Of a stretch of DNA of 64,000 nt, positions 34,333 through 39,355 are shown one piece after another; position 1 is the stretch's first letter, and every line of letters starts with the position of its first letter. The position numbers were made by a program, and so were the translations under genes. Source of the DNA: Blautia sp. SC05B48 (GTDB lineage Bacteria > Bacillota > Clostridia > Lachnospirales > Lachnospiraceae); assembly GCF_005848555.1 (NCBI RefSeq), contig NZ_CP040518.1, positions 1,797,001-1,861,000 of the forward strand. Direction: 5' to 3'. The notes beneath the pieces are model-generated. The model was not told where the DNA came from. It worked only from the letters and a program-made list of their open reading frames with translations, and ran no database searches.

Positions 34333-36591
34333 ATGAAACTTTACGATACCGGCGTTTATCTTCAGAACGGACAGGAAATCATTCCCGAGAACCAGGCTGA
34401 TCTGCCTGTAGCGAAAGAAGAGGCTGCTAAGAATACCATCGCATATTCTATTCTTAAGGCTCACAATAAATCTGATAACATGGAGAAGCTTCAGATCAAA
34501 TTTGATAAACTGACTTCCCATGATATCACATTTGTAGGAATCATCCAGACTGCGAGAGCTTCAGGACTTGAGAAGTTCCCGGTACCATATGTACTGACCA
34601 ACTGTCATAACTCCCTCTGTGCAGTAGGCGGAACCATCAATGAAGATGACCACATGTTTGGTCTCACCTGTGCCAAAAAGTACGGCGGAGTTTATGTACC
34701 GCCTCATCAGGCAGTTATCCATCAGTTTGCAAGAGAAATGCTTGCAGGCGGCGGAAAGATGATCCTCGGCTCCGACAGTCATACAAGATACGGAGCACTT
34801 GGAACCATGGCTATGGGAGAAGGCGGACCGGAGCTTGTAAAACAGCTTCTCTGCCAGACATACGATATTAATATGCCAGGCGTAGTTGCTATTTATCTGA
34901 AAGGTGCTCCACGTCCGGGTGTAGGACCGCAGGATGTTGCGCTTGCCATCATCGGCGAGGTTTTTGCCAACGGCTATGTGAAGAATAAAGTTATGGAGTT
35001 CGTTGGACCTGGAGTTGCCAGCTTAAGCGCAGATTTCCGTATCGGTGTTGATGTTATGACAACAGAAACCACATGTCTTTCCTCCATCTGGCAGACAGAT
35101 GCGAAGATCGAGGAATTCTATGCGATCCACGGAAGACCGGAGGATTACAAAGAACTGAAACCGGGCAACGTTGCATACTATGATGGCTGTGTAGAGATCG
35201 ATCTCAGTGAGATCAAGCCAATGATCGCAATGCCGTTCCACCCGAGTAACACCTACACCATCGATGAGCTGAAGGCAAACCTTGACGATATCCTTGCAGA
35301 TGTGGAGAAGAGAGCACAGGTAAGCCTTGACGGAAAGATTCCGTTCACATTGAGAGATAAGGTAGTTGATGGCAAGCTTTATGTTGAGCAGGGAATCATT
35401 GCCGGCTGTGCAGGTGGCGGATTTGAGAATATCTGTGCAGCAGCAGATATCCTCAAGGGCAAAAATATCGGCCATGATGCCTTCACCTTAAGTGTATACC
35501 CGGCAAGTACTCCGATCTACATGGAGCTGGCTAAGAACGGTGTTCTTGCAGAACTGATCGGAACAGGTGCAGTTGTGAAAACTGCATTCTGCGGACCGTG
35601 CTTTGGCGCCGGAGATACACCTGCAAACAATGCATTCAGTATCCGTCATACAACCAGAAACTTCCCGAACCGTGAAGGCTCCAAGATCCAGAACGGTCAG
35701 ATTTCTTCTGTTGCACTTATGGATGCACGTTCCATTGCGGCTACAGCAGCAAACAAGGGATTCCTTACCTCAGCAGAGGAGTTTGGCGGAAGCTATTCCG
35801 AGCATAAATACTACTTCGATAAGTCTATCTACGATAACCGTGTATTTGACAGCAAGGGCGTGGCAGATTCAAGCGTAGAGATCCAGTTTGGACCGAATAT
35901 CAAAGATTGGCCGGAGATGGCTGCACTTGCAGACAACCTGATCCTGAAGGTTGTTTCTGAGATTCACGATCCAGTTACTACCACTGACGAGCTGATCCCG
36001 TCCGGTGAGACATCCTCCTACCGTTCCAACCCGCTTGGACTTGCAGAGTTTACATTGTCCAGAAAGGATCCGGCTTACGTTGGCCGTGCAAAAGAGATCC
36101 AGGCAGCACAGAAGGCAATCCAGGCAGGTAGCTGCCCGGCAGAGGCTGTTCCGGAACTGAAACCGGTTATTAAAACCATCAACAAGACTTATCCGGATGT
36201 AGATAAGACCAACCTTGGCGTAGGAAGTACCATCTTTGCAGTGAAACCGGGCGATGGCTCTGCCAGAGAGCAGGCTGCATCCTGTCAGAAGGTACTTGGC
36301 GGCTGGGCAAACATTGCCAATGAGTATGCAACCAAGAGGTATCGTTCCAATCTGATCAACTGGGGTATGCTTCCATTCCTGATCCCGTCCGGAGATCTTC
36401 CGTTCAAGAACGGTGATTATCTGTTCTTCCCGGGAATCCGCAAGGCGGTTGAGGAAAAAGCAGATGTGATCAAGGGCTATACCGTTGAAGGTGATTCTTT
36501 GAAGGAGTTCGAGGTAACTCTGGGTGAGCTGACAGACGATGAGAGAGAGATTATCCTTAAGGGTTGTCTGATCAATTATAATCGTAAATAG
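34333..36591 (+). CDS. Aconitase-superfamily hydratase (YbhJ-like)
   Basis: 752 residues, near the length of E. coli YbhJ (about 750) and shorter than AcnA. Aconitase landmarks are visible: [20 protein letters not shown], the cluster cysteines in AGCAGGG and CGPCFGAG, and the C-terminal swivel part with [26 protein letters not shown]. The [4Fe-4S] ligands are therefore present. It may act as aconitase or on a related hydroxyacid; no citrate synthase or isocitrate dehydrogenase gene adjoins it. GGAGG precedes the ATG, and a terminator follows at 36694. Confidence 0.88.
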
Positions 36592-36693: not shown

Positions 36694-36738
36694 GCAGACT
36701 GGTGACCATTTTGATCAAGGTTGCCGGTCTGCTTTTTT
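36694..36738 (+). terminator. Terminator after the hydratase gene
   Basis: GCAGACTGG (36694-36702) pairs with CCGGTCTGC (36724-36732), with six T after it. Confidence 0.85.
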
Positions 36739-36863
36739 ACTTTTAGAGGTGTGGTTGTGGGAAGTTTTTAGGGTTGTGGATACTTATGACGATGCGGACA
36801 CCTCACGCTGACATTCCCAGAGACAAATTCCAGCCTCGGTAAAAATATCAAGAAAAGCTCAAC

Positions 36864-36932
36864 AAATGATGACCGTCTCAACACTCTTCGTTATTCAATT
36901 TTTCTTCTTCTTCGTTCTTTCGAATAAAGTTT
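36864..36932 (+). repeat. Left arm of a 69-bp inverted repeat
   Basis: Reads inward from AAATGATGACCGTCTCAAC to CGAATAAAGTTT. Its reverse complement occurs at 38365-38433 with a single mismatch (T/C within the CTTCTTCTTC run). Confidence 0.9.
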
Positions 36933-36941
36933 ATCTCAATC

Positions 36942-37001
36942 CCCTGCGAACATTGCAAAGTACAAACATTGTAAAGTACAAACATTGCAATGTTTGCAGG
37001 G
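36942..37001 (+). repeat. 16-bp stem enclosing 16-bp tandem repeats
   Basis: CCCTGCGAACATTGCA (36942-36957) pairs with TGCAATGTTTGCAGGG (36986-37001), one mismatch. Overlapping it is a 16-bp unit, ACATTGCAAAGTACAA, in 2.5 tandem copies (36950-36965, 36966-36981, 36982-36990). Confidence 0.8.
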
Positions 37002-37057
37002 CCAATGCAGTCACACAGAAATTTTTCTAACTAACTTTCCATGTTCGAAAGTCAGGG

Positions 37058-37239
37058 CGGGAAGGACGGGCGGGGCGGGTGACTCTGCAGGAGTCGTAGT
37101 ACTTCTTAGGCCGCGGGGAGGCTGCGTTGCTGGAAAAATCCCAGCTGTTTGAGCGTCAGCGAGTTCTGGGATTTTTTCAGCGGTTTTAGCAGAATCCCTG
37201 CAGCCTTAGAAGCCTCACCCGCCCCGCCCGTCCTTCCCG
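37058..37239. repeat. GC-rich 25-bp inverted repeat around a terminator-like hairpin
   Basis: A 25-bp arm (37058-37082, starting CGGGAAGGACGGGCGGGG) is perfectly inverted at 37215-37239. Inside it TTCTTAGGC and GCCTTAGAA also pair with one mismatch. The centre is AAAAATCCCAG (37134-37144) with CTGGGATTTTTT (37166-37177), which would stop transcription from both sides. The loop is CTGTTTGAGCGTCAGCGAG. Confidence 0.8.
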
Positions 37240-37390
37240 ACCGTCCGTTCGCAACATACCATCCCGTTCTTCACAACTTCACAATAGCATAAATTAACAG
37301 AAAATAATAAAAAATACAAACAAATTATAAAATATAAACACCTAACAAAACAAATAAATAAAAACAATAGCATAAAAACACAAAAATGTA

Positions 37391-37419
37391 TTGACAAATA
37401 CCCGCAACGATGTTATTAT
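37391..37419 (+). promoter_or_regulatory. Strong sigma-A promoter in the gene-free region
   Basis: TTGACA (37391-37396), 17-base spacer, TATTAT (37414-37419). No coding region follows within 1.2 kb. Confidence 0.65.
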
Positions 37420-37425
37420 AAGACC

Positions 37426-38471
37426 ATCAAAAACAACAAGAGAAAAATAAAAAAAGAAAATCATTCAATTCATAGCATAGATGCACATGAAGGATGAAGA
37501 AAGGAAAAGGTGATTCCAGTGGGAACATGAACAAACACCATCATCAATATGAGAGTGACAGGAACCGAATTTCCTGCAAGAAAGACCTGATACAGATCAC
37601 ATATGATACACCTTAAGAAAACAGAAGTTTCTTTTAGGAAATATAAATAAGATTCTCTTAAATCTTACTTATATTTTAAGAAATCAGAAACAAAAGGAAA
37701 TCAGTATTTCAGGTAATATAGAATCGGTAACTCATATTGAACAACTGTCACACACCTGATACAAAGATTTTAGGAAATATGTAAAGAAATATTTCCCGAA
37801 AGAGTAAAACCCTCAACTCACCGGTTCGTTGGAAAGAAGAGATTCCAAGAACAAACGTGAAGATGAGAACGATACTTTGAAATGCATATCAGAACCATTA
37901 GGATATGGATTGAAGCTTTGCATCAGAAGAATATCTGAGAGGATATTAAAAACAGAAGAATCGGGCAGGAACTTTTTTCCAGGATACTTTAAAGAACTGC
38001 AGAGGAGAAAATCCCAATAGGTCGATTTGAATCAGCAGATCACAAAGTACAGAGATAACAAATGGTTTTGAATTTAAGAAGTTAAGTCCAGAATTGTTTA
38101 GTGAACAGGAAAAAGTATAACCACCGAAATTCTTCAGATAAACAGGAAATCAAACATCGTAAAAGATGATTTCCAATCTATAAAACTTTCTAAATAATCG
38201 AGGAGATATACTTACATATATCAGTCGTTTATGAGCAGGAAATAAAAAAGAAGAGAGAATCTGAAAAAGAAAAATTTCAAAATTGAATAAAGAGAATCGA
38301 AATTATTTTATAAAGTATATAAAATCAGAGATTTCGATTGATAAATATAATAAGTATAACAAGAAAACTTTATTCGAAAGAACGAAGAGGAAGAAAAATT
38401 GAATAACGAAGAGTGTTGAGACGGTCATCATTTTTGGAAACTGTAAAAGTAAAAAAAGTGATGACCGTCTC
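37426..38471 (+). ncRNA. Candidate large structured noncoding RNA
   Basis: About 1 kb behind a strong promoter without coding signals. Stable stems seen: ATATAAATAAGATT (37641-37654) with AATCTTACTTATAT (37661-37674), one mismatch; GGAAATC (38145-38151) with GATTTCC (38168-38174); AATCGAAAT (38295-38303) with ATTTCGATT (38331-38339), enclosing ATTTTATA (38305-38312) with TATAAAAT (38318-38325); GAGACGGTCATCA (38418-38430) with TGATGACCGTCTC (38459-38471). No clear terminator T-run ends it, so the 3' end is a guess. I cannot match it to a known family such as ROOL, GOLLD or OLE from sequence alone. AT-richness makes chance pairing easier, hence the low confidence. Confidence 0.35.
38365..38433 (-). 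repeat. Right arm of the 69-bp inverted repeat
   Basis: Inverted copy of 36864-36932, 68 of 69 bases the same. A shorter direct copy of its outer 13 bases (TGATGACCGTCTC) stands at 38459-38471. No target-site duplication was found next to the two arms. Confidence 0.9.
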
Positions 38472-38656
38472 GTTGTGTATATAAGATTGCATATGTTAAG
38501 TATATAATCGTTCCGAAAAGCCCTGGATAAAATAATATGATCCGATCAGAGATCAAAATTTTCAATCAGAGATTTTCCGAACAGTTATATTTATCAGTTG
38601 CCATCAAAAACATCATCAGTTATACTTCTGTGAGAAAGGAAGTAAGATGAGAAAAT

Positions 38657-39355
38657 ATGTGGAATTATCAGATTGAAGAAAATATTTTATATGAAGACAA
38701 AGAAATCCTTGTGTGCAGAAAAACAGCAGGAATGCCGGTGCAGGCAGCAAAAATAGGAACAATGGACATGGAAAGTGCCCTGAAAAATTATCTGGTTAAA
38801 AAAACACCGGGGAAGATCCCATATCTGGGAGTAGTGCATCGCCTTGATCAGCCGGTAGAAGGCATTCTTGTATTTGCGAAAACATCCGAAGCAGCAGGAA
38901 ATTTGAGTAAACAGATGATGGCAGGAGGCGCCGGAAAATATTACCTGGCAGTAACAGAGGGAAAAGCAAAGAACTCAGAAGGGACTCTTACAGACTATCT
39001 GAAAAAAAATGGAAAAGCCAACATGTCTCAGGTTGTGTCTGCAAATACACCGGGAGCAAAAAAAGCAATCCTTCATTATAAAGTTCTGGATCAGCAGGAG
39101 ATAAACGGAAAATCCCGGACACTTCTTAAGATCAGGCTGGAAACAGGTCGACATCATCAGATCCGTGTGCAGCTCTCTCATGAGGGAATCCCCCTTCTGG
39201 GAGACCGGAAATATAATCCTTCAGGAGAAAAAGGTACATCACTGGGACTTTGTTCCAGTTGTCTGGAATTCAAACACCCCAGAACAGGAAAAATGATGAA
39301 GTTTGAAACAGAGCCACAGGGAAGCGCGTTTCTGGATTTTGTGAAAAAAATGTAA
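38657..39355 (+). CDS. RluA family pseudouridine synthase
   Basis: 232 residues, catalytic domain only (no S4 domain). The catalytic motif is VVHRLDQPVEGILVFAKT with the essential Asp in HRLD; later motifs RLETGRHHQIRVQLSHEG and GLCSSCLEF are also typical. It isomerises uridine in rRNA or tRNA; the target base is not predictable. The best ribosome site (AAGGAAG, 38636) fits an ATG at 38647, which opens only a 9-codon frame overlapping this start, so translation may be coupled or weak. Confidence 0.9.
   Translation: MWNYQIEENILYEDKEILVCRKTAGMPVQAAKIGTMDMESALKNYLVKKTPGKIPYLGVVHRLDQPVEGILVFAKTSEAAGNLSKQMMAGGAGKYYLAVTEGKAKNSEGTLTDYLKKNGKANMSQVVSANTPGAKKAILHYKVLDQQEINGKSRTLLKIRLETGRHHQIRVQLSHEGIPLLGDRKYNPSGEKGTSLGLCSSCLEFKHPRTGKMMKFETEPQGSAFLDFVKKM

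Follow-up and report, generated by a model that had tools for sequence, protein, structure and literature searches.

Organization of the locus downstream of the aconitase gene

The analyzed window is a 64,000-nucleotide stretch of DNA from Blautia sp. SC05B48 and forms part of one contig of 3.73 Mb. Between the aconitase gene acn and the gene for an rlu-type pseudouridylate synthase lies a segment that is almost certainly the gene for a large structured noncoding RNA. The features of the locus, in the order of their positions, are:

34333-36591, plus strand: acn, the aconitase gene (Pfam PF00330), the upstream neighbor conserved in synteny
about 36694-36739: hairpin with a T-tract following acn
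36864-36932, minus strand: left arm of the inverted repeat, a putative relic duplication of the RNA tail in inverted orientation, upstream of the promoter
37046-37251, no strand assigned: dispersed hairpin repeat separate from the RNA, located between the left arm and the promoter
37290-37390, plus strand: stretch rich in A (68%) in front of the -35 element, possibly an UP element
37391-37419, plus strand: predicted promoter, TTGACA-17-TATTAT
37426-38471, plus strand: large structured noncoding RNA gene of about 1,046 nt, with the start predicted from the promoter and the end from the terminal hairpin
38365-38433, plus strand: right arm of the inverted repeat, which coincides with the 3' portion of the RNA and extends as far as the 5' strand of the terminal hairpin
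38418-38471, plus strand: terminal 18-bp hairpin (38418-38435 with 38454-38471), a likely terminator or 3' end
38657-39355, plus strand: rlu-type RNA pseudouridylate synthase gene (Pfam PF00849), the downstream neighbor within the genus and part of the wider family

The initial annotation of the window singled out the inverted repeat as near-perfect and as bounding a gene-free area. The first description is accurate: the two arms are reverse complements that differ at a single position of 69, for which chance is a negligible explanation, and the longer pair 36859-36932/38365-38438 matches at 96% over 74 positions. The area also lacks a convincing protein, as was noted. The longest open reading frame on the RNA strand encodes 63 amino acids, and among 29 relatives, in which open reading frames range from 18 to 75 amino acids, no conserved one was found. 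The area was rightly flagged as needing an explanation; it contains a conserved structured RNA. However, the arms do not bound a unit. The conserved unit runs from the promoter at 37391 to position 38471; its start is 458 bp inward of the left arm, and its end lies past the right arm. The outer 13 bases of the repeat do occur for a third time at 38459-38471, because this sequence belongs to the 3' strand of the terminal hairpin, the 5' strand of which is the outer end of the right arm.

The promoter matches the consensus at 11 of 12 positions, carries a TG in front of the -10 element, forming an extended -10, and is kept in 31 of 32 loci from the same genus. Two close relatives, G005 and G016, have a different gene upstream of the RNA, but retain the RNA together with about 90 bp before the promoter. 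The A-rich stretch is kept in both genomes, whereas the sequence further upstream is unrelated. At the opposite end of the gene, the terminal hairpin is 96% paired in 29 relatives. The sequence following it in the window is not T-rich, and the 3' end of the RNA may therefore be made by processing. Judged by sequence, the RNA has a promoter of its own and a defined 3' end, apart from any coding gene. The GC content of the RNA gene is 31%, compared to 45.5% for the window.

Three further sequences vary around the gene. The hairpin repeat at 37046-37251 belongs to a repeat of approximately 140-206 bp with several more copies in the genome, which are 69-81% identical, and is also found in related species. 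About 105 bp located 3' of the terminal hairpin (38481-38585) are present in the window genome and in G004, but absent from G005 and G016. G004 has an additional insertion of about 230 bp between acn and the left arm.

Conserved structure and distribution of the RNA

RNAalifold predicts about 20 helices from 29 sequences. In the MAFFT alignment of these sequences (A2), 108 pairs belonging to 14 helices, most of which contain compensatory changes, were counted, and 95.3% of the cells are paired, a percentage biased in favor of the structure, which was derived from the aligned sequences themselves. When the pairing partners are slid by one column, pairing falls to 37-46%. Double changes provide stronger evidence than pairing percentages because the structure came from the same sequences. 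They occur in 61 of the 108 pairs, compared to a mean of 28.2 in shuffled alignments, and the observed number was not reached in any of 500 shuffles. The structure includes two domains:

37544-37553 with 37731-37740, plus strand: domain 1, helix A, 97-100% paired, with double changes in 6 of 10 pairs in alignment A4 and 7 of 10 pairs in alignment A5
37555-37560 with 37746-37751, plus strand: domain 1, pseudoknot helix B, which crosses helix A
37564-37568 with 37724-37728, plus strand: domain 1, helix C, with double changes in 5 of 5 pairs in A2
37756-37766 with 37916-37926, plus strand: closing helix of domain 2, which spans 37756-37926
37769-37801, 37824-37852 and 37881-37911, plus strand: inner hairpins of domain 2

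Pseudoknot helix B is 100% paired both in A4, which contains 22 sequences and has double changes in five of its six pairs, and in the 29 sequences of A2, where all six pairs have double changes. In domain 2, an alignment of 18 sequences (A1) contains double changes in 28 of 39 pairs, a number reached in 0 of 500 shuffles. Taken across these alignments, the compensatory changes support an extensive conserved secondary structure of the RNA. An additional helix, 37463-37470 with 38397-38404, suggests that the 5' and 3' parts of the RNA are closed onto each other; the closure is unproven since the helix has zero compensatory changes, and five of its eight pairs depart from pairing solely by unpaired cells.

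A DNA search with positions 37380-38480 against 36 other genomes of the genus identified the RNA in 32 of them. In most of them, the gene is situated between acn and rlu, and the syntenic order is aconitase gene, RNA, rlu-type pseudouridine synthase gene, and the gene for a periplasmic-binding lipoprotein. A covariance model of domain 2 (R1) gave weak matches in five other genera of Lachnospiraceae. The promoter and several conserved motifs occur in all five loci, four of which have acn upstream and rlu downstream of the RNA. A model of domain 1 that includes helices A and C and leaves out helix B (R2) matched 56 of 397 sampled Lachnospiraceae genomes, from 47 of 334 genera, under strict filtering of the model searches, which may miss diverged members. 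In 341 genomes of the class, the R2 model had matches only within Lachnospiraceae, and in 249 genomes of the phylum it matched only the RNA of the window.

The loci from other genera share features that were not part of the R2 model. Helix B is paired in 98.95% of the cells in 49 newly found loci. Of 46 testable loci from other genera, 45 have the promoter pattern no more than 460 nt in front of the RNA core, compared to 1.2% in shuffled sequences. A long stem occupies the place of the terminal hairpin in nearly all of them, and T-rich sequence often follows it. Nearly all matched genomes have a single locus. The RNA is kept across many genera of Lachnospiraceae. G142, a genome from another genus, has two matches to the core model (L200 and L218) and is the sole such case among the 56 genomes. 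A scan of contigs with the rlu protein retrieved mostly rlu relatives that do not adjoin acn; among the rlu contigs checked, only three have clear RNA features, and these belong to same-genus genomes already counted.

Alternative explanations and the origin of the left arm

The gene located 3' of the RNA varies between genera and is encoded on the opposite strand in some loci (L156, L191, L200, L218, and L231). Given these differences in the following gene, the RNA is probably a stand-alone molecule acting in trans. That the RNA serves the downstream gene as a very long cis-regulatory leader is an unlikely alternative; it retains some weight because rlu usually follows the RNA in the genus, on the same strand and, in the window, 185 bp downstream. 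Another set of genera has a long same-strand gene of unknown function in this position. Nevertheless, the downstream gene is inconstant across the family and convergent with the RNA in some genomes, and a long stable hairpin closes the RNA before the downstream gene begins. Furthermore, an RNA of 0.5-1.1 kb with a pseudoknotted core is far above the size of known leaders.

At least 14 genomes from other genera have, 3' of the RNA and in the same orientation, a gene that encodes a large protein of approximately 820-1,100 amino acids with a conserved start resembling LDKYEYRVKTEQMLEYME (loci L208, L210, L213, L216, L217, L220, L224, L226, L228, L229, L235, L236, L238, and L239). Pfam searches with this protein gave only sub-threshold matches.

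It is also very unlikely that the RNA is a strongly diverged member of ROOL, GOLLD, OLE, HEARO, or a housekeeping RNA family, even though the large known classes resemble it in size, ornate folding, and the possession of a stand-alone promoter. Neither the window nor 23 other loci matched a family in Rfam 15 at gathering thresholds or at relaxed E-values; the scans returned only, for the window, weak and implausible microRNA-type matches on simple hairpins and, for one of the other loci, tRNAs. The 6S RNA, tmRNA, and RNase P RNA were ruled out, as each is found elsewhere in the window genome. The chromosomal position of the gene differs from those of ROOL and GOLLD, which are reported to be encoded by phages and prophages, and the segment has no match in the phage and plasmid collections. 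Two 17-base motifs from the core occur in eight viral contigs; the core model matches none of these, consistent with a chance occurrence of the motifs.

No description of the RNA was found in the papers searched, although an earlier partial report may exist. Fragments of it could be among the 3,161 candidates for structured RNAs that PMC8040213 catalogues from human microbiomes.

The left arm has a much narrower distribution than the RNA. Among 32 same-genus loci that were read directly, it was present, besides the window, only in G004, the nearest relative of the window genome (97% identical). A search of 64 genomes of the genus likewise identified a separate left copy, among the matches listed, only in the window genome (G000) and G004. 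The left arms of the two genomes have one mismatch to the right arm in common, and that of G004 has one more, whereas their right arms are identical. The shared mismatch and the identical right arms place the copying before the split of the two species. The left-arm copy thus dates to the common ancestor of these sister species, a lineage that already had the RNA.

Inverted duplication is the most likely origin of the left arm, perhaps through a strand switch at the terminal hairpin. The arm is positioned 3' of the hairpin and T-tract that follow acn, and 5' of the RNA promoter. No plus-strand promoter was found in front of it, and because it also lies upstream of the RNA promoter, the left arm is probably not transcribed. 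The initial annotation had listed long-range pairing of an RNA among the explanations of the repeat. This idea was correct in that a conserved structured RNA is present, although it includes only the right arm; pairing between the arms is unlikely because the promoter is located between them and the left arm is outside the predicted transcript. The left arm would be a neutral inverted duplicate of the RNA tail. The combination of an RNA gene with a left arm that is an inverted copy of its tail is very probably the correct description of the segment.

The same arm geometry would fit a switch in which the 1.4 kb between the arms inverts and flips the RNA gene, and 69 bp of near-identical inverted homology are a plausible substrate for recombination. 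On the minus strand the left arm has the sequence of the RNA tail, and the flipped gene would thus acquire a near-complete tail, but without the 3' strand of the terminal hairpin. However, the two arm-bearing genomes have the segment in the same orientation, other relatives do not have the left arm, the arms of G004 have already diverged (two mismatches), and no recombinase gene was seen between the arms or directly beside them. Inversion is very unlikely.

It is barely credible that a small non-autonomous, MITE-like element inserted after acn, with the arms as its terminal inverted repeats, even though long near-identical inverted arms flank a protein-free segment: a target-site duplication is absent, as already stated in the initial annotation, and the flanking sequences beyond each arm do not match each other; the genome contains no second copy of the segment; the arms do not coincide with the conserved unit; the phage and plasmid collections yielded no match; and, in place of empty sites, relatives keep the interior and right arm at one syntenic site without the left arm, and the segment therefore did not arrive as a unit.

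Putative function and comparison with known large RNAs

Transcription from position 37426 would be high-level, judging from the strength of the promoter and the A-rich stretch upstream of it, and the transcript would stop, or be trimmed, at the terminal hairpin. The RNA would fold into a compact knotted structure and act in trans, as an RNA complex or as the core of an RNA-protein particle, instead of serving as a leader of the next gene. By analogy with ROOL, GOLLD, and OLE, a structural or scaffold role can be proposed tentatively. The RNA most likely belongs to an undescribed class of large, stand-alone structured RNAs. There is an even chance that the RNA represents an undescribed class from Lachnospiraceae, ranking with ROOL, GOLLD, and OLE, which functions in trans as an RNA-only or RNA-protein particle and has been kept through the history of the family at or near one locus.

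Very few classes of bacterial noncoding RNA of nearly 1 kb have strong structural support, and those that do have been found to build unexpected RNA assemblies. The gene described here is chromosomal, occupies a conserved locus, and is carried by many common gut commensals, some of them probably culturable, which makes its function directly testable. The RNA is AT-rich, and pipelines that seek GC-rich intergenic regions would therefore miss such genes. This suggests that more RNAs of this kind are still unseen.

Among the known systems, OLE is likewise a large structured chromosomal RNA, found in Firmicutes, that occurs once per genome. However, the taxonomic range and neighbors of OLE differ from those of the new RNA, which has no match to the OLE family in Rfam. 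The raiA motif RNA (ModT) is also a structured stand-alone RNA of Bacillota and Clostridia (PMC11706538), but its Rfam model has about 210 nt, compared to about 1 kb for the RNA described here, and does not match the window. GOLLD belongs to the same size class of over 800 nt and has a similarly ornate fold. In contrast to the new RNA, for which no phage association was detected here and which does not match GOLLD in Rfam, GOLLD is phage-encoded, and its expression is linked to lysis (PMC12286853). ROOL, GOLLD, and OLE all form ordered RNA complexes (PMC12286853). ROOL (Rumen-Originating, Ornate, Large) shares with the new RNA its large size, stand-alone noncoding character, many helices, pseudoknots, occurrence in gut bacteria, and unknown function. 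The Rfam scans gave no match between the two in sequence or structure, and their locations differ: like GOLLD, ROOL is carried by prophages and phages in the vicinity of tRNA islands (PMC12286853), while the new RNA is found on the chromosome next to acn in a large part of Lachnospiraceae.
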